Below, piece after piece: positions 365-32,711 of a DNA stretch of 64,000 bases (the first letter of the stretch is position 1; every line of letters starts with the position of its first letter). The translations under genes and the position numbers were made by a program. The stretch is from Alphaproteobacteria bacterium (GTDB lineage Bacteria > Pseudomonadota > Alphaproteobacteria > Micropepsales > Micropepsaceae). The notes beneath the pieces are model-generated. The model ran no database searches. It was given only the letters and a program-made list of their open reading frames with translations, and was not told the DNA's origin. The stretch lies in NCBI GenBank assembly GCA_947462105.1, contig CANHNJ010000013.1, forward strand, positions 1-64,000. The letters are read 5' to 3'.

Positions 365-2485
365 GTGGAGCCGTCCGGACGCAAGTTGCTGGCCTGCCTT
401 GCCGCCACCGTGGCGTTGGTGGGGTTTGCGTCGTTCCCCGGCAAGGCCATCGCGCAGGAAAACCCGCCCGAAGATGCCGTAACCCTGGCGGATGATGCCG
501 AGACCGTTACCGATGCCGATACGGGCGTTACCTCGTATGTTCCGGCCTTCTTTCTCGAATCCAATCCCGCCAATGCGCGCGATATGGTCGGGCGTTTGCC
601 CGGCTTCATTTTCAACGGCGGCAATGCCTCGACCCGGGGTTTTGCTGGCAGCGCCGGCAATGTGCTAATCGACGGGGCGGGAGCCTCGACCAAATCCGTC
701 AGCCTGAACGACGTCCTGCAGCGCATTCCGGTCAGCAATGTCGAACGCATCGAAGTGATCCGGGGCGGCGCGCCCGGCATCGACATGAAGGGCTTCCCCG
801 TCGTCGCCAACGTCATCCGCAAGACGGCACAAACGACCGGCGGCGCGATCCAGGCCACGCCATCCATCAACCAGCTCGGCAATGTTCATGTGCAAAACAG
901 CCGGGCTGAAATCTCCCACCGCACCGACCATTTCTCGTTCGATGGCGCGATTTCCACCGACAGCAATGCCTTTGGCGGCAACGGCACCGGCGGCAATTCT
1001 TATGGAACCCAGGCGCGCTACGACAGGTTCGGCCGCCTCCGCGACTCCGGCGACTATCGGGCGCCGGGCTACGAGAACAATTATTCCGGCAACGGCGTGG
1101 CGGAATATCGTCATGACTGGCTGGGAACATTCCGTCTCAACGCCAGCGCCAGCGCCGGCAAGGAAGCCCTCGAAACCAACTATTATGCCGTTGATACGCT
1201 GGGCGTCACCACGCTGAGGGACAGCCCTTCGCGCAGCCGCAGCACGGGTTACGAATTCGGCGCCGATTATGACGGCGAGTTTTATGGCTATCGGGCCACG
1301 CTGCTGGGGCTTTATCGCCGCAGCTTTCCGCAGAGCAGTTCCCGAAACAACTCCACCGCGACGGAATCCGGGAACAGGTCCCCGAACGGCGAAACCATCG
1401 CGCGGGCCACCCTGCGCAACGAACTCACGCCCTGGCTGACGCTGCAGGCCGGCGCAGAAGGGGCGCTCAATTTCCGCGACACGAAATCCTTCCTGACCAT
1501 CGGCGGCGTTGCGCAGCGGCTGCCGAACGCGAATGTGCGGGTCGAGGAAAACCGTGCCGAATTCTCCGGAACAGCCAATATCGTTTTCTGGCCGGAGTTC
1601 CGTGCCGAAATTGGCATGAGATACGAGACTTCGGTCATCAGCCAGATCGGCGACACCAACCGGAAGCACGCCTTCACCTTCGGCAAGCCGATGGGGATTC
1701 TCACTTACGATCTCGCGGAGGGAACACAGCTGCGCTTGCGGTTGGAGCGGCGCGTTGGACAACTGGATTTTGGCTCCTTCGCCGCGTCCAACGACGCCGT
1801 GCTGGAAACGGTCACTGCTGGCAATGCCGATCTCGAGCCGGAACGGGCCTGGGGTTACGAAGCCGCCATCGAGCAGAACTTCTGGGGCAAGGGCGCCATT
1901 ACGCTCAGCTATCTCCATTCCAATGTCGAAAAGATCAATGATCGCATCGTGGTCATCACGCCGACCTCCATTTTCGATGCGCCCGGCAATATCGGTGACG
2001 GCACGCGCGACCTGGTCTCCCTCGACGCCACGATACCCTTCGACAGGCTGGGCCTGAGGAATTTTCGCGCGACGCTGGATTTGAACTGGAAATGGTCAGA
2101 GCTCACCGATCCGGTGACCGGCGTCTCGCGCGGGGCTAGCGGCGAAAGTCCTTTTGGCGGCAACATCTCCCTGATCCAGGACGTCCCGGCTTGGAATTCC
2201 AGCTTTGGCATCCAGGGCGTCATCATGCCGCGCACCACGACCTACCTTTTGCACGAATTGCGGCAGGAACAGACCCTGGTGCCCCGGAACGTTATCTACT
2301 GGAGCTGGCAGGCCCGGCCGGACTTCCAGCTGCGTCTGACGGCTGAAAATCCCCTCCGGCGCGAACGGGTGCGAAACCGGACGCTCTTTACGACCAGCCG
2401 CGCGGTGGCCGATTTTTCCGGCAGTGAAACCTTGCGGACAGCGTCCTATCCGGTCTTTCGCCTCCTGCTGCGTAAGACATTCTAG
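365..2485 (+). CDS. TonB-dependent outer-membrane receptor
   Basis: The 706-residue protein starts at GTG. Residues 1-30 look like a signal peptide, with cleavage after AIA before QEN. Residues about 55-153 form a TonB plug domain: GRLPGF, then a GNVLIDG segment, then RIPVSNVERIEVIRGG, the conserved plug end. The rest alternates polar and hydrophobic residues as in a 22-strand barrel and ends in phenylalanine (RKTF), the usual outer-membrane insertion signal. The family imports siderophores, vitamin B12, nickel or oligosaccharides using TonB energy. The nearby secreted aldose epimerase and cytochrome make a carbohydrate or plant-derived ligand plausible, but that is inference. No clear TonB box is seen. 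A truncated relative lies at 4826-5209. Confidence 0.88.
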   Translation: MEPSGRKLLACLAATVALVGFASFPGKAIAQENPPEDAVTLADDAETVTDADTGVTSYVPAFFLESNPANARDMVGRLPGFIFNGGNASTRGFAGSAGNVLIDGAGASTKSVSLNDVLQRIPVSNVERIEVIRGGAPGIDMKGFPVVANVIRKTAQTTGGAIQATPSINQLGNVHVQNSRAEISHRTDHFSFDGAISTDSNAFGGNGTGGNSYGTQARYDRFGRLRDSGDYRAPGYENNYSGNGVAEYRHDWLGTFRLNASASAGKEALETNYYAVDTLGVTTLRDSPSRSRSTGYEFGADYDGEFYGYRATLLGLYRRSFPQSSSRNNSTATESGNRSPNGETIARATLRNELTPWLTLQAGAEGALNFRDTKSFLTIGGVAQRLPNANVRVEENRAEFSGTANIVFWPEFRAEIGMRYETSVISQIGDTNRKHAFTFGKPMGILTYDLAEGTQLRLRLERRVGQLDFGSFAASNDAVLETVTAGNADLEPERAWGYEAAIEQNFWGKGAITLSYLHSNVEKINDRIVVITPTSIFDAPGNIGDGTRDLVSLDATIPFDRLGLRNFRATLDLNWKWSELTDPVTGVSRGASGESPFGGNISLIQDVPAWNSSFGIQGVIMPRTTTYLLHELRQEQTLVPRNVIYWSWQARPDFQLRLTAENPLRRERVRNRTLFTTSRAVADFSGSETLRTASYPVFRLLLRKTF

Positions 2486-23186: not shown

Positions 23187-23810
23187 TTAAGACCGGAACT
23201 GCTTGGCGAGCTCGCTGAGATGCGAAATCAGCAGTTTCACGTTGCCATTGTTCTGGCCCAGGAAGGCGACGAACTGGTCGCGCTGCTGCAGCGACAGCCA
23301 CACGCCTTCCACCGAGATGTCGGTCACCACCGGCTTGGCGCCATCGGTGCGGACGCGGAAGCTGACTTCCAGCGGCTGGCCCGACTTGGCCGGATCGATC
23401 AGCTGGGTGGAGACGATGTAGTCGGTCGGAGCCCGCTGGGTAGAGCCCGTCACCTTCAGCGTCTGGCCGGAATATTTCGAGAAATAGAACTGATAGACCG
23501 ACACGGCATAGTTCTGGAACGCGCTTTCGAACCCGGCCACATCGGCGGGTGAAGCGCTGCGGCGATACTGGCCCAGCGTGAAGTCGGCAATGCGCTTGAG
23601 GTCGGTGAGGCCGGTGAGGAACTGCTCGAACTGGTCGCGCTTGGCCGCTGGCGTCAGCGTCTTGCTGTTGAGACGCGCCAGGCCCCTCTGGATATTGTCC
23701 GAGACGAAGGTTTCCGCTGGGTCCGCAGCCAGGGCGGGCGCTGTCAGGAATGGCACCACAAGGGCGGTGGCCAGGAGCGTGCGGCGGGCCAGGGAGAAGG
23801 GGGTGCTCAT
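23187..23810 (-). CDS. mlaC: MlaC/Ttg2D-type periplasmic phospholipid-binding protein
   Basis: The protein has 207 residues, with a signal peptide ARRTLLATALVVPFLTAPALAA. Family features are AETFVSDNIQRGLARLN near the start, FTLGQYRRSASPADVAGFESAFQNYAVSVYQFYFSKYSG in the middle and GVWLSLQQRDQFVAFLGQNNGNVKLLISHL at the end. MlaC shuttles phospholipids between the MlaA-porin complex and the inner-membrane MlaFEDB transporter; in hopanoid producers the homologue is called HpnM. It lies 78 bp downstream of mlaA on the same strand, so the two probably form an operon. The transporter genes are not here. Confidence 0.85.
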   Translation of the reverse strand: MSTPFSLARRTLLATALVVPFLTAPALAADPAETFVSDNIQRGLARLNSKTLTPAAKRDQFEQFLTGLTDLKRIADFTLGQYRRSASPADVAGFESAFQNYAVSVYQFYFSKYSGQTLKVTGSTQRAPTDYIVSTQLIDPAKSGQPLEVSFRVRTDGAKPVVTDISVEGVWLSLQQRDQFVAFLGQNNGNVKLLISHLSELAKQFRS

Positions 23811-23888
23811 ACTAATGTCTCTCGCAACTATACGTGCAGAATTGCGGTTTGCTGCGGCAGTTTCAAGGCTGAACGGGCCCGATTTTTC

Positions 23889-24617
23889 TCAGAAATCCGG
23901 CAATTCCGCCGCCGGATTGGCCACGCCGTCGCGAATTTCGTTGTCGCGCGCCTGGCGGTAAAGGTTCCGCAGGGCGGCATAATAATCCACCGAGCTGCGC
24001 TCGATACCCTGCAGCGTGTCGAAGGTCTGGGATCGCAGGTCCAGCACGTTGAGATATTGCCGCCCTGCCGCCCACCAGAAATGCTGCTTGAAGTGGATAT
24101 GGTTGGTGGGATCGATGCCGAACGTGTCCACCATCAGTCCCGCCGTGTCGCGCGGGTTGCTGGGCCCCAGCAGCGGCAACATCACGAAGGGGCCTTCGCC
24201 CGCGCCCCACACCGACAGCGTCTGGCCGAAATCCTCGCCGTGATAGAGCATGCCGATGGGTGTGGCGGGATCGAAAAGGCCGCCCACTCCGATGCTGGAA
24301 TTGATCACGAAGCGCGCCACGGTGCGGCCTGCCCGGCCGGGCTTGGCCTGCAGCAGGTCGTTCACGAAGATGGTGGGCAGCGCCAGGTTACGCAGCAAAT
24401 TGTGCACGCCGGTGCGCATGAATTCCGGCAGCGCCCGGTAGCGTTCCAGCGTGTGGATGAAGACCAGCCGGTCCACTTCCTGGTTCAGCACCATGATGTT
24501 GCGGTTGGCCGGCTCATAGGGGTCGTTAGCAGCCAGCGCCTCGGGTGAGGCGGTGCTGGCGCAGCCCGCCAGCGCCAGTCCATAAAGCCCCAGCAATAGC
24601 GCCCGAAAGCCGCGCAT
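23889..24617 (-). CDS. mlaA: MlaA (VacJ) outer-membrane lipoprotein
   Basis: The 242-residue product starts at ATG 24617; the longer open frame begins in non-family sequence. The signal peptide ends in the lipobox LALAGC, so C19 is lipidated. The family core is DPYEPANRNIMVLNQEVDR, LRNLALPTIFVNDLLQ, RFVINSSIGVGGLFDPA, GEDFGQTLSVWGAGEGPFVMLPLLGPSNPRD and the LRSQTFDTL-YAALRNLYRQ tail. MlaA removes mislocalised phospholipid from the outer leaflet and hands it to MlaC, encoded next. It is divergent from the ArsR-methyltransferase gene across about 140 bp. Confidence 0.9.
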   Translation of the reverse strand: MRGFRALLLGLYGLALAGCASTASPEALAANDPYEPANRNIMVLNQEVDRLVFIHTLERYRALPEFMRTGVHNLLRNLALPTIFVNDLLQAKPGRAGRTVARFVINSSIGVGGLFDPATPIGMLYHGEDFGQTLSVWGAGEGPFVMLPLLGPSNPRDTAGLMVDTFGIDPTNHIHFKQHFWWAAGRQYLNVLDLRSQTFDTLQGIERSSVDYYAALRNLYRQARDNEIRDGVANPAAELPDF

Positions 24618-24725: not shown

Positions 24726-24747
24726 CATATAAAGATATGTTTATATG
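24726..24747. promoter_or_regulatory. candidate operator of the ArsR-methyltransferase/metF/metH operon
   Basis: CATATAAA (24726-24733) and its exact complement TTTATATG (24740-24747) flank a 6-bp GATATG spacer. The site ends only a few bases before the GGAGG ribosome site (24752-24756) of the ArsR-methyltransferase gene. A/T-rich inverted repeats of this shape are typical ArsR-family operators, so autoregulation is likely. This is inferred from position and symmetry. Confidence 0.55.
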
Positions 24748-24761
24748 TTTTGGAGGCTTGG

Positions 24762-25724
24762 TTGGAGCGGTTGGTGGCCATGTTGCGTGCGGCGGGGGAT
24801 CCCACCCGCCTGCGCCTGCTGCTGCTGCTGCGGGAGGCCGAACTGACCGTGAGCGAATTGATCGAGATTGTCGGCCAGTCCCAGCCCCGTGTTTCTCGGC
24901 ATCTCAAGCTGTTGGGCGAAGCCGGACTGCTGGAGCGCTTCAAGGAAGGCAGCTGGGTTTTCTATCGCGCCGCCGGGCGTGGCACCGGCGCAGAACTGGG
25001 CCGCACGGTGGCGGAGCTTTCGGGTGGCCATGCCGCCGACCTGGCCCGGCTGAGCCATGTGCGGGCCCAGCGCGCCGCCCGCGCCGCCGACTATTTCAAG
25101 GCCAATGCGGCGGAATGGGCCCGCATTCGCGCCCTGCATGCGCCGGAAAAGGATGTAGAGGCGGCGATCCTGACCCGCCTGCCGCAAAAGATCGGCGGCC
25201 TGCTCGACATCGGCACCGGCACGGGCCGGATGCTGGAACTGGTGGCGCCGCGCGCCGCCCGCGCCATCGGCATCGATGTCAGCCCGGAGATGCTGGCCAT
25301 TGCCCGCGACCGGCTGCCTGGCGAGACGCTGGGCCATGTGCAGGTGCGGCTGGGCGATCTTTATCGCCTGCCCTTTACCGATGCCGGCACGGGCGAGAAT
25401 GAAGCGGGCTTCGACGTGGTGCTGTTCCACCAGGTGCTGCATTACCTTGATGATCCTGGCGCGGCGGTGGCGGAAGCTGCGCGCGTAATGACGCGGGGTG
25501 GCCGCCTGCTGATCGCGGATTTCGCGCCGCATGGTCTGGAATTCCTGCGCGACGAATATGCCCATCGCCGTCTGGGTTTTTCCGACCGCGAAGTGGAAGG
25601 CTGGCTGTCCGCTGCCGGGCTGACACTTTCCGCCACCGATACTATTGCCCCGGAACAGTCCGGGGCCGACAAGCTGACCGTCAAAGTGTGGTTTGCCACG
25701 CGCAACAAGAACGAAGCCCCATGA
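24762..25724 (+). CDS. ArsR-family regulator fused to a SAM-dependent methyltransferase (SahR-like)
   Basis: A TTG start at 24762 sits six bases after GGAGG; an in-frame TTG at 24750 and ATG at 24780 are alternatives. The 320-residue product has an ArsR winged-helix domain (AAGDPTRLRLLLLLREAELTVSELIEIVG, then QPRVSRHLKLL). A class I methyltransferase domain follows with LLDIGTGTGRML, IGIDVSPEML and FDVVLFHQVLHYLDDP. No metal-binding ELCVCDL-type cysteines are present, so it is probably not an arsenic sensor. Its TGA overlaps the ATG of metF. Regulators of this build next to SAM-cycle genes (SahR group) sense S-adenosylhomocysteine; that role is inferred here from context. Confidence 0.85.
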   Translation: MERLVAMLRAAGDPTRLRLLLLLREAELTVSELIEIVGQSQPRVSRHLKLLGEAGLLERFKEGSWVFYRAAGRGTGAELGRTVAELSGGHAADLARLSHVRAQRAARAADYFKANAAEWARIRALHAPEKDVEAAILTRLPQKIGGLLDIGTGTGRMLELVAPRAARAIGIDVSPEMLAIARDRLPGETLGHVQVRLGDLYRLPFTDAGTGENEAGFDVVLFHQVLHYLDDPGAAVAEAARVMTRGGRLLIADFAPHGLEFLRDEYAHRRLGFSDREVEGWLSAAGLTLSATDTIAPEQSGADKLTVKVWFATRNKNEAP

Positions 25725-26605
25725 GCCTCAAAGACCTGATCGCAACCGGCGGCGCACCCAGCGTGTCGTTCGAATTCTCCCCGCCCAAGAATGACGAGGC
25801 GGAGGCAGCCCTGTGGGTCGCGATCAAGCGGCTGGAGCCGCTGTCGCCCAGCTTCGTCTCCGTCACCTATGGCGCGGGCGGTTCCACCCGCGAGCGCACC
25901 CATGCCACGGTCAAGCGCATCGTGGACGAAACCACGCTCAAGCCCGCCGCGCACCTGACCTGCGTCGGGCACACCCGGGACGAGATCGGCGAGATCGTGC
26001 GCGGTTATTGGGACAATGGCATCAAGCATATCGTGGCGCTGCGCGGCGACATGCCGGGCATGGAAGGGCCCTACTGCGCCCATCCCGACGGCTACCAATC
26101 CACGCCGGAGTTGATCGCGGGGCTGAAGAAGATCGCGCCCTTCGAGGTCAGCGTCTCCTTCTATCCCGAGTGCCATCCCGACTCGCCCAGCCACGGCCAT
26201 GACATCGAATTGCTGAAGAAAAAGCAGGATGCGGGCGCGGCACATGCCTTGGGCCAGTTCTGCTATGACGACGACGCCACGGCGCGCTTCCGCGACGATG
26301 CGGCAGCAGCCGGCATCACTATTCCCATCGTGCCCGGCGTCATGCCCACCACCAATTTCCGTGCCGTCGAGCGCATGGCGGGCAAGGCGGGCGCGTCCAT
26401 TCCAGCCTGGCTGGCGCGCGCCTATGAAGGACTGGACGACGACGTCGAAAGCCGCCGCATCGTCGCCGCCGCCGTTCTGGCCGATCAGGTGCAGCAGCTG
26501 CGCGCCCGCGGCTTCGATCATTTCCATTTCTATACGCTCAACCAGGCCAATCTCAGCTATGCGGCCGCCCGCCTGCTGGGAATGCGGCCGAAGGATATCG
26601 CATGA
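25721..26605 (+). CDS. metF: 5,10-methylenetetrahydrofolate reductase
   Basis: The product is a 294-residue FAD enzyme that reduces methylene-THF to 5-methyl-THF, the methyl donor used by MetH. ATG 25721 overlaps the upstream stop (ATGA); the longer frame has no upstream start with a ribosome site. Motifs are [14 protein letters not shown] at the N-terminus, [35 protein letters not shown] and YPECHPDS, all standard for MetF. It ends in an ATGA overlap with metH, so regulator, reductase and synthase are translated in tandem. Confidence 0.95.
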
Positions 26606-29600
26606 GTTTCGACCGTTCCGTCCGCATTGACTGGATGAAGCAGGAAGCCAGGAAGCGCCTGTTGCTGCTCGACGGCTCCTGGGGCGTGATGATCCAGGGC
26701 TACACGCTGGGCGAGGATGATTTTCGCGGCCAGCGCTTCGGCAACCATCCCTCGGAGCTCAAGGGCAACAATGATCTGCTGACCCTGACCAAGCCGGAGA
26801 TCATCCAGAATATCGGCCGCATGTATCTGGATGCGGGCGTGGATTTCATTGAAACCAACACCTTCAACTCCAATTTCACCAGCCAGGAAGATTATGGCCT
26901 GGGCCACCTGGTCAGCGAGCTGAACGAGGCTGGTGCGCGGTTGGCGCGCGCGCTGTGCGATGAATATTCCACCGCCGACCGACCGCGCCTGGTGGCGGGC
27001 GTGCTGGGCCCGGCCAACCGCACTGCGACGATCTCGCCCGACGTCAACGACCCGGCCTTCCGCAACATCACCTTCGACCAGTTGCGCGAAACCTATCGCG
27101 ACGGCACGCGTGGCCTGATCAAGGGTGGCGCCGACGTCATCATGATCGAGACGGTGTTCGATACGCTGAATGCCAAGGCGGCGATCTATGCCATCGAGGA
27201 AGTCTATGAGGAGCTGGGCCTGCGCCTGCCGGTGTGGATTTCTGGCACCATCACCGACCTGTCGGGCCGCACTTTGACGGGCCAGACACCGGAAGCCTTC
27301 TGGCATTCGGTGCGCCACGCCAACCCCTTTGCCATCGGTCTCAATTGCGCCCTGGGCGCCAAGGAACTGCGTCCCTACATCGCCGAATTGTCGAACGCCT
27401 GTGACACGCTGGTGTCGGCGCATCCCAATGCCGGTCTGCCCAACGAGTTCGGTGGCTATGACGAGAGCCCCGAACAGATGGCGGAGATGATCCGCGAGTT
27501 CGCCACCTCTGGCCTGGTCAACATTGTCGGCGGTTGCTGCGGCACCAAGCCGGATCACATCGCCGCCTTCGGCAAGGCCATCAAGGATGTGCCGCCGCGC
27601 CAGATTCCGCAGAAGCCGAAATATATGCGCCTGTCGGGTCTGGAGCCGTTCACCCTGACGCCCGACCTGAACTTCATCAATGTCGGCGAGCGTACCAACA
27701 TCACGGGCTCGGCCAAGTTCCGCAAGCTGATAGTCGCCAATGACTATGAGGCGGCACTGAGCGTGGCGCGCGACCAGGTCGAGAATGGCGCCCAGGTCAT
27801 CGACATCAACATGGACGAGGGCATGATCGACGGCGAGGCGGCGATGACCCGCTTCGTCAACATGATGGCGGGCGAGCCGGACATTTCCAAGGTCCCGCTG
27901 ATGATCGATAGCTCCAAGTGGCATGTGATCCAGGCCGGCCTGAAATGCTGCCAGGGCAAGGTCATCGTCAATTCGATCTCGCTCAAGGAAGGCGAGGAGC
28001 AGTTCCTCAAGCACGCCAAGGAAGTCATGCGCTTCGGCGCCGCCGTGGTGGTGATGGCGTTCGACGAGGTCGGCCAGGCCGACACCAAGGAGCGCAAGAT
28101 CGAGATCTGCAAGCGCGCCTATGACATCCTGGTGCAGAAGCTGAATTTCCCGCCCGAAGACATCATCTTCGACCCCAACATCTTCGCGGTCGCCACCGGC
28201 CTGGAAGAGCATAACGAATACGGCAAGGCCTTCGTCGAGGCCTGCGAGGTCATTCGCCGCGAGAATCCGCATGCCCATATCTCCGGCGGTGCCTCCAACT
28301 TCTCCTTCTCCTTCCGGGGCAACGAGAAGGTGCGCGAAGCCATGCACAGCGTTTTCCTGTTCCACGCCATCAAGGCGGGCATGGACATGGGCATCGTCAA
28401 TGCCGGCCAGCTCACCGTCTATCAGGATATCCCGACTCCGCTGCGCGAAGGCATCGAGGATGTCTTCTTCAACCGCCGCCCCGACGCCACCGAAAGACTG
28501 CTGGAGCTGGCACAGCAATATCGCGGCGACGGCAAGGTTGCCGACGTGGCCGACGCTGCCTGGCGCAGCCTGCCGGTGAATGAACGCATTTCCCACGCTA
28601 TGGTGCAGGGCATCGACGCCTTCATCATCGAGGACACCGAGGAAGCGCGCCTGGCCGCCGAAAAGCCGCTGCATGTCATCGAAGGCCCGCTGATGGCGGG
28701 CATGAACGTGGTCGGCGACCTGTTCGGCTCGGGCAAGATGTTCCTGCCGCAGGTGGTGAAGTCGGCCCGCGTCATGAAGAAGGCGGTGGCACACCTGCTG
28801 CCCTTCATGGATACCGACAAGAGCCAGACGAAGGAGCCGGCAGGCAAGATCGTCATGGCGACGGTCAAGGGCGACGTCCATGATATCGGCAAGAACATTG
28901 TCGGCGTGGTGCTGCAGTGTAACGGCTATGAAGTGATCGACATGGGCGTGATGGTGCCCATGCAGAAAATTCTCGATGCCGCCAGGGAGCACAAGGCCAA
29001 CATCATCGGCCTGTCCGGCCTGATCACGCCGTCGCTGGACGAGATGGTGACGGTGGCGTCCGAGATGGAACGCCAGGGCTTTGACATTCCGCTGATGATC
29101 GGCGGCGCCACCACCTCCAAGGTGCATACGGCGGTGAAGATCGATCCGACCTATCGCCGTGGCCAGACGGTATACGTCACCGACGCCAGCCGCGCCGTCG
29201 GCGTCGCGTCCAGTCTGCTGCAGAAGGAAACCGGGGCGCAATACGCCGCCGGTATCCGTGCCGAGTATGAGAAGATGGCCGCCGGCCATGCCAACCAGCG
29301 TGCGGGCGGCAAGCGCCTGGCGCTGGCGGATGCCCGCGCCAACCGCGCCAAGACGGATTTCACCAAGACCGCGCCCGCGCCGACATTCTTCGGCACCCGC
29401 GTATACAAGGAATACGACCTGGCGGAACTGGCGAAGTACATCGACTGGACGCCCTTCTTCCAGACCTGGGAACTGGCGGGCCGCTATCCCGACATCCTGA
29501 CCGATGACAAGGTCGGCAAGGCCGCCAGCGATCTTTTCCGCGACGCCCAGGCGATGCTGCAGAAGATCATCGACGAGAAGTGGTTGGAAGCCCGCGCCGT

Positions 29601-30315
29601 GATCGGCTTCTGGCCCGCCAACAGCGACCCCAAGAATGTCGATGACATTCTGGTCTATGGCGACAAGGCGCGGAAATTCCCCATCCAGACGCTGCACACG
29701 CTGCGCCAGCAGATGACGCGCGAGGCGGGCCGACCCAACCTGGCGCTGTCCGACTTCATCGCCCCACCCGGCACCGACGATTATATCGGCGGCTTCGCGG
29801 TGACGGCGGGCATCGGCGAAGAGCCGCACCTGGAAGCCTTCCGCGCCGCCAAGGACGATTATTCCGCCATCCTGCTGTCCGCCCTGGCCGATCGCCTGGC
29901 CGAAGCCTTTGCCGAGCGCCTGCATGAAAAGGTGCGCAAGGACTATTGGGGCTATGCCGCCGACGAGGCCTTCAGCAACGACGACCTGATCAAGGAAGCC
30001 TATCAGGGCATCCGCCCCGCACCGGGCTATCCCGCCCAGCCGGAGCACAGCGAGAAGGGCACGCTCTTCAAGCTGCTGGATGCGGAAGACAAGATCGGCG
30101 TCAAGCTGACCGAAAGCTATGCCATGTGGCCAGGTTCGTCGGTGTCGGGCTTCTATTACGCCCATCCCGAAAGCCGCTATTTCGGCATCGGCAAGATTGA
30201 GCGCGACCAGGTGGAGGATTATGCCCAGCGCAAGGGCTGGGACATGGCCACCGCCGAACGCTGGCTTGCCCCGCTGCTGAACTACAATCCGCGCGCCCTG
30301 GACGCCGCCGAGTGA
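26602..30315 (+). CDS. metH: cobalamin-dependent methionine synthase
   Basis: At 1,237 residues this is full length. Domains in order are the homocysteine-binding barrel ([12 protein letters not shown] to the zinc site GGCCGT near 312-317, with an earlier cysteine in GLNCALG), the pterin-binding barrel ([31 protein letters not shown]), the cap, the B12 domain with the cobalt-ligating DVHDIGKN near residue 755, and the C-terminal SAM-dependent reactivation domain ([32 protein letters not shown]). Many alphaproteobacteria split MetH into two proteins; here it is a single chain. It overlaps metF before it and the TVP38-type gene after it by four bases each. Confidence 0.96.
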
Positions 30316-30966: not shown

Positions 30967-31671
30967 ATGTCTGTCTGGGGAAAAGTCGGCGGCGCCGCCG
31001 CAGGTCTGATAGTGGGCGGCCCCGTGGGCGCGCTGGTTGGCGCTGTGGCGGGCCATTTCCTGTTCGATCGCGAAGCTGATCCCGGCGTGGTCTTCACCAT
31101 CGCCATCATCGCCCTGTCGGGCAAGATGGCGCGTGCCGACGGCATCGTCACCGACGAGGAATTCCAGATCTTCCGCCGCGTCTTCAACCTGCCGCCGCAG
31201 GATGAAGCCAGTGTGCGCCTCATCTTCAACCTGGCGCGGCAGGACATCGCCGGTTACGAAGCCTATGCCACCCAGATCGCGCGGCTGTTCGTCGGCAACC
31301 ACGCCATTCTGGAAGACGTGCTCGATGGCCTGTTCGAGATCGCCAAGGCCGATGGCGTGCTGCATCCGGGTGAGGCCGCCTTCCTGGAACGGGTGGCGGA
31401 AATCTTCGGCTTCGCCCCCAACGAGTTTCGCCGTATCCGCGCCAGCCATTTCGCGCCGGAACTGACCGATCCCTATGTCATTCTTGGCGTTTCCTATGTC
31501 GCCAGCGATGACGAGATCAAGCAGACCTATCGCCGCCTGGTGCGCGAGAACCATCCCGACAGCCTGATCGCGCGCGGCGTGCCCATCGAGTTCGAGAAAC
31601 TGGCCAACGACAAGCTGGCCTCGATCAACGCCGCCTATGAGCGCATCCTGGCGGAGCGGGGGCTGAAATGA
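30967..31671 (+). CDS. DjlA-like co-chaperone (TerB domain plus J domain)
   Basis: The protein has 234 residues. The glycine-rich N-terminal segment GGAAAGLIVGGPVGALVGAVAGHFLF is likely membrane-associated. A TerB/DjlA-type helical domain follows (TIAIIALSGKMARADGIVTDEEFQ, then LFEIAKADGVLHPGEAAFLERV). The last 70 residues are a J domain (PYVILGVSYVASDDEIKQTYRRLVRENHPD) with HPD at 196-198, needed to stimulate DnaK ATPase. It overlaps the amidase start by four bases. Confidence 0.88.
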   Translation: MSVWGKVGGAAAGLIVGGPVGALVGAVAGHFLFDREADPGVVFTIAIIALSGKMARADGIVTDEEFQIFRRVFNLPPQDEASVRLIFNLARQDIAGYEAYATQIARLFVGNHAILEDVLDGLFEIAKADGVLHPGEAAFLERVAEIFGFAPNEFRRIRASHFAPELTDPYVILGVSYVASDDEIKQTYRRLVRENHPDSLIARGVPIEFEKLANDKLASINAAYERILAERGLK

Positions 31672-32346: not shown

Positions 32347-32706
32347 TCAGATGGCCGGGTGACCGCGGGCTTCGCAAGAAGTTCGAGGAAAGTCCGGGCT
32401 CCACGGAAAAACGGTGCCGGTTAACGACCGGCGGGGGCGACCCCAGGGATAGCGCCACAGAAATCAAACCGCCGAATTCCTTCGGGGATGGCAAGGTTGA
32501 AATGGTGCGGTAAGAGCGCACCGCGCGACTGGCAACAGAAGCGGCACGGCAAGCCCCACCGGGAGCAAGACCAAATAGGGACGGCAGGTTGCGTTTTCCG
32601 CGTAGCCGTCCGGGTCGGTCGCGTGAGGTGTTCGGTAACGGGCATCCCAGAGGAATGGTCACCACCACGCAAGTGGTACAGAACCCGGCTTACAGGCCAT
32701 CTGATA
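32347..32706 (+). ncRNA. rnpB: RNase P RNA, type A
   Basis: The catalytic RNA of RNase P trims tRNA 5' leaders. The ends pair as P1: CAGATGGCC at 32348-32356 with GGCCATCTG at 32695-32703. Conserved core blocks are present in order: GAGGAAAGTCCGGGCTCC (CR I), AGGGATAGCGCCACAGAAA (CR II/III) and the 3' block CAGAACCCGGCTTACAGG (CR V). Boundaries are set by P1 and may be off by a few bases. No protein-coding frame fits this stretch. Transcription probably ends in the T-rich ATATTTTATTTTT just after P1. Confidence 0.93.
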
Positions 32707-32711
32707 TTTTA

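Follow-up and report, generated by a model that had tools for sequence, protein, structure and literature searches.

A probable SahR-type regulator and its conserved operator before metF and metH in Micropepsaceae

In the work of Novichkov et al. 2014, the sensing domain of the regulator SahR reportedly resembles methylases, and S-adenosylhomocysteine (SAH) is said to release SahR from DNA. SahR is an SAH-responsive regulator of the ArsR family. In the portion of its description available, it is present in all alphaproteobacterial groups studied but not in every genome, its operator is a 20-bp palindrome and its core targets are sahR, ahcY, metH, metF and metK (PMC4239095). Micropepsaceae were not met among the lineages named in that portion. 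It also describes SamR of the Xanthomonadales, a SahR homologue adjoining metH genes and associated with a palindrome, whose regulons exclude SAM-cycle genes other than metK and whose effector is left open (PMC4239095). A second description, likewise available in part, concerns ArsR-M of Brevundimonas sp. M20, an ArsR-methyltransferase fusion whose 960-bp gene heads an arsRM-metF-HMT-metH operon. ArsR-M was studied by promoter mobility shift, a methyltransferase kit assay and higher arsenite tolerance in E. coli, and its proposed arsenic site consists of C134 and Q224-L229 (PMC10190100). The word SahR is absent from that paper. In the literature collection searched, no paper combined 'SahR' and 'arsenite methylation', and none combined 'Rhizomicrobium' and 'SahR'.

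The window analysed here is a stretch of 64,000 nucleotides (bases 1-64000 of contig 13) from a Micropepsaceae genome of 2.17 Mb that is 98% complete and belongs among the relatives of Rhizomicrobium. It very probably carries an alphaproteobacterial SahR with an autoregulated operon, the regulator acting as a repressor that SAH releases. The features of the locus are as follows.

24726-24747, no strand assigned: operator, 22-bp palindrome CATATAAAGATATGTTTATATG, symmetric at 20 of 22 positions
24752-24756, plus strand: ribosome-binding site GGAGG, read from the sequence, 5 bp before the TTG at 24762
24762-25724, plus strand: regulator of 320 amino acids, very probably of SahR type (Pfam, NCBIfam, structure model, fold matches and conservation)
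25721-26605, plus strand: metF, methylenetetrahydrofolate reductase (Pfam MTHFR, 7.6e-80)
26602-30315, plus strand: metH, cobalamin-dependent methionine synthase (NF007024 and TIGR02082, both above cut-off)

The initial annotation had described a perfect inverted repeat with a 6-bp spacer before the ribosome site, and the coordinates bear this out: the arms CATATAAA (24726-24733) and TTTATATG (24740-24747) flank the spacer GATATG, and GGAGG begins 4 bp past the end of the operator. It had also described a fusion of an ArsR domain to a methyltransferase fold, which was recovered as matches to HTH_5 (5.5e-16) and Methyltransf_11 (3.3e-22) in a single open reading frame, with the winged helix at residues ~1-70 and a class I methyltransferase fold at ~102-316. 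The overlaps noted between the regulator and metF and between metF and metH are an ATGA at each junction, and MetH domains were matched by Pfam in the metH product. The start at TTG 24762 aligns with the start codons of relatives; an alternative TTG at 24750 is likewise open for the regulator. A scan for sigma-70-like promoters at the operator gave none. Upstream of the regulator and divergent from it are mlaA and mlaC (23187-24617, minus strand), so the operator lies within a shared intergenic region; many of the nearest loci from named genomes have mlaA at the same place. Elsewhere in the window are a protein in which a TerB domain is joined to a C-terminal DnaJ domain (30967-31671, plus strand) and a bacterial class A RNase P RNA (32347-32708, plus strand).

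The bare repeat proves nothing, since perfect 8-bp arms around a 6-bp spacer occur six times in the window, and in one of these six neither arm has more than one G or C. Allowing up to 3 mismatches over the 16 bases of the arms, the 2.17-Mb genome gave no second copy, a search that is weak on its own because the pattern read backwards matched once too. These two counts are the case for a chance palindrome; part of an RNA element would be the other way for the repeat not to be an operator. It is conservation, rather than the repeat as such, that marks it as a real element. The 22-bp site was present with up to 3 mismatches in 54 of 60 genomes of the family and its backwards pattern in none of the 60. 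Two of the six genomes without such a site are without the regulator and the other four carry the site with more changes. The regulator was detected in 58 of the 60, the best matches in the remaining two, G048 and G031, being at E 3.5e-11 and 4.7e-7. All 58 family regulators have the palindrome no more than ~100 bp upstream (upstream DNA was read for 50 and coordinates were checked for the other eight).

Conservation extends beyond the family. Of 387 genomes across the class, 203 carry the regulator, and 86 loci from these 203 were read, two of them from the family. With a first matrix, which included some ahcY sites, was later replaced by one from regulator sites only and underlies the class-wide regulator counts and the named-locus scores, 79 of the 86 loci had a site scoring > 15, against 2 of 1720 dinucleotide shuffles. 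Next to the regulator was metF in 83 of the 86. No strong site was seen at seven class orthologues (L268, L270, L272, L296, L308, L315 and L321), two of which, L315 and L321, are also without metF. In a collection of named genomes the palindrome was present at all 80 loci (the best 80 of 188, partly repeating the family set and with some contigs ending early), with metF next in 77 and metH following in 74. In Rfam nothing matched at the loci of the regulator, ahcY and metK, which speaks against an RNA element there. With position and sequence kept in this way at the regulator, and with the conserved ahcY sites described below, chance or an RNA element is hardly credible as the origin of the repeat.

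The regulator itself is also conserved in sequence. In 104 aligned sequences the recognition helix SQPRVSRHLKLL (Q39-L48, except V44) is at least 97% conserved, as are the SAM/SAH motif residues D149, G151, T152, G153, G155 and D172. The predicted structure has a mean pLDDT of 84 and supersedes an earlier model with 74. The methyltransferase domain of this model aligns with the structure of SAH-bound NodS at Z 22.0, with an rmsd of 2.5 Å over 188 residues. A PDB sequence search gave no chain spanning both domains among the 60 chains listed of 62, and a structural search with the regulator model gave no ArsR chain among the matches listed, the list being taken up by matches to the methyltransferase domain. 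Methyltransferases of the RdmB, DnrK and Rv2258c type, which have an N-terminal dimerisation domain before a class I fold, were among the best Foldseek matches, several of them with SAM or SAH bound. However, superposing both domains at once on these proteins fails (rmsd ~15-20 Å over both). They are described as enzymes, whereas the ArsR recognition helix and the conservation of the operator suggest that the window protein binds DNA.

The Brevundimonas operon appears to be of the same type as that in the window, and orthology with ArsR-M is suggested by architecture, length and operon. The fusions are of equal size, both operons are of metF-metH type and ArsR-M binds its own promoter (PMC10190100). 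The window protein might accordingly be read as a bifunctional ArsR and arsenite methyltransferase, one that uses SAM to methylate As(III) and in addition attaches to its own promoter. For ArsR-M, the available portion of the paper reports both promoter binding and a methyltransferase assay for a fusion heading a metF/metH operon (PMC10190100). Residues 224-229 of the window protein are QVLHYL, consistent with Q224-L229, and many relatives have cysteines, for example at position 193 in 75 of 104 sequences and at position 52 in 61 of 104. Known ArsM enzymes depend on cysteines. The window protein has none, one of 11 such sequences among the 104, and residue 134 is Ala; Cys134 was found in 0 of the 104, a set that does not include the Brevundimonas M20 protein itself. 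Of the As(III) site proposed for ArsR-M, an arsenite methyltransferase with C134 as described in the available portion (PMC10190100), the Q224-L229 part is present in the Cys-free window protein and C134 is not. The ArsR-M palindrome CTTTATATAAAG was found at 0 of 86 class loci. The setting also argues against an arsenite methyltransferase, with metF and metH as neighbours and with conserved sites at SAM-cycle genes; we consider this reading highly improbable here. Apparently one type of operon has been described in print both as encoding an SAH-sensing repressor and as encoding an arsenite methyltransferase. Members that lack cysteine, the window protein among them, permit a clean test between the SahR and ArsR-M descriptions.

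Returning to SahR, the window regulator has an ArsR domain and fuses an ArsR-type DNA-binding domain to a domain of methyltransferase fold, as SahR reportedly does. As described for SahR, a palindromic operator of ~20 bp precedes the regulator's own operon (58/58 in the family, 79/86 in the class). The regulator heads or adjoins metF/metH, the core sahR-metF-metH forming one overlapping run behind the operator in an alphaproteobacterium, and there are sites at its own operon and at ahcY, with a weaker candidate at metK. Gene order, domains and the joint conservation of the regulator with its operator and the target genes are observed directly. The initial annotation had proposed SahR-like control of methyl-cycle genes, a proposal that is now supported: in architecture, in targets (metK being the weak one) and in its palindrome, the system matches SahR in the available portion of its description (PMC4239095). 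The gene-specific series of half-sites in Micropepsaceae, described below, is unlike SahR as published. As far as searches show, the lineage is a new one for SahR, the switch itself being of a known kind. The locus extends SahR-type control to Micropepsaceae, with sequence evidence for most of the core regulon.

By analogy with published SahR work, repression, SAH as the effector and sensing rather than catalysis are likely here too. A dimer would use its ArsR winged helices, with SQPRVSRHLKLL as recognition helix, to bind the 22-bp palindrome, and would shut the sahR-metF-metH promoter. At diverged copies of the site it would also shut the promoter of ahcY and probably that of metK. As SAH accumulates it would fill the pocket of the methyltransferase fold and the SAH-filled dimer would leave the DNA. 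AhcY, MetF, MetH and MetK would then rise, and SAH would be turned back into SAM.

Secondary sites are most regular before ahcY. A pattern search of the family gave 13 of them in 11 genomes, of which 11 are directly before ahcY and two before metE. The family sets for ahcY and metK were the best 30 of 56 and the best 30 of 59 genomes with a match, respectively. With the regulator-only matrix, 28 of 29 ahcY upstreams of relatives scored > 10, against 2 of 580 shuffles; L092 is the one without a site. The same matrix gave 12.8 at -123 before ahcY of the window's own genome, and a matrix from the relatives' ahcY sites gave 33.8 at -115, a score reached by 0 of 1000 shuffles. These two candidates overlap and the one at -115 is used in the half-site count below. 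Among 93 class genomes with ahcY, 21 full-length new ones with their locus were read, leaving out a second ahcY of G060, and 19 of these have the regulator. Outside the family, an ahcY site scoring > 5 was found in 15 of the 19 regulator-bearing genomes, against 0 of 380 shuffles, and in 0 of the 2 genomes without the regulator; the four class upstreams where it is absent are G167, G124, G122 and G170. G048 is an anomaly in having an ahcY site (L099) yet no regulator match better than the E-value given above.

At metK a related dyad, [CG]A[TC]AT[AG]-N10-[CT]AT[AG]T[CG], was found in 15 of 30 upstreams, that of the own genome included, compared with 1 of 6000 shuffles, and is missing from the other half. 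By the regulator-only matrix the score of the own metK site is low, at -4.5. With the first matrix, 15 of 1000 shuffles attained the score of the own metK site and 1 of 1000 that of the own ahcY site. The weakest link of the proposed regulon is metK. A relaxed dyad, SATAT-N12-ATATS, has four matches in the own genome and its reversed pattern two, counts that are only descriptive because the pattern was chosen after three own sites were known. Three of the matches are before the regulator, ahcY and metK. The fourth, on contig 24 (G000:C24:2964-2985; L140 1501-1522), is inside long open frames and was taken as chance.

The own ahcY and metK sites have diverged and were recognised through relatives. 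This bears on the expectation, raised with the first description of the repeat, that the same site would stand before other methionine genes. It does so before ahcY in 28 of 29 relatives and before metE in two genomes, and metK adds its related dyad in 15 of 30; near-identical copies in the own genome, which were also looked for, are not there. On comparative evidence from sequence, the operator does appear to control other SAM-cycle genes. A search for SAH riboswitches gave no match in the own genome and likewise none in 14 control genomes, so the negative carries no weight. At L190 a regulator 67% identical to that in the window is divergent beside metK and ahcY rather than before metF-metH, and this gene order is another link of the regulator to the SAM cycle.

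The distribution of sites also bears on the identity of the effector, which could be SAM rather than SAH if the switch were SamR-like, as proposed for the Xanthomonadales. The window regulator resembles SamR as a SahR homologue adjoining metH with a palindrome. The sequence of the pocket does not discriminate between SAM and SAH, metK carries the related dyad in half of the upstreams and the effector of SamR itself is left open in the available portion of its description (PMC4239095). However, it is ahcY, encoding the step that removes SAH, that has the most regular secondary site (28/29 relatives, 15/19 class-wide), whereas SamR regulons, in the same portion, do not take in SAM-cycle genes except metK (PMC4239095). 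A SAM-responsive switch is therefore unlikely, if less so than an arsenite methyltransferase, and SAH is the preferred effector.

Sites at different genes differ in their half-sites, which are of two kinds, A (CATATAA..) and B (CATATG..). Own-operon sites have A in both halves: none of the 25 distinct regulator site sequences of the family carries G at position 6. Of the 29 family ahcY sites, 23 have B as the gene-distal half and all 29 have A as the gene-proximal one. The 15 metK dyads found all have B in both halves, a result not forced by the search since the pattern allowed A or G at position 6, the sites having nonetheless been found with that pattern. Outside the family, class-wide ahcY sites scoring > 15 look A/A (0/14 with G6), but the matrix used to find them was built from A/A sites and may be biased towards these. 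It is possible, though we hold it doubtful, that the Micropepsaceae regulator reads a gene-specific operator code. The differences could reflect tuned operator strength; alternatively, the B/B dyad at metK could belong to a second regulator. If the code were true, graded affinity would order the release of methyl-cycle genes as SAH rises. The half-site series gives a specific proposal for how a single repressor might act on its targets to different degrees.

Two relatives carry, at metE, an operator of the SahR-site type and then a cobalamin riboswitch.

L065, before metE: site 2001-2022; cobalamin riboswitch 1765-1974, minus strand
L067, before metE: site 2001-2022; cobalamin riboswitch 2049-2260, plus strand

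With operator and riboswitch together, the B12-independent enzyme may in L065 and L067 be under dual control by SAH and B12. A second cobalamin riboswitch in L067 (1680-1889, minus strand) lies back to back with the first, before an open frame that may encode a ribonucleotide reductase, judging by how it reads.
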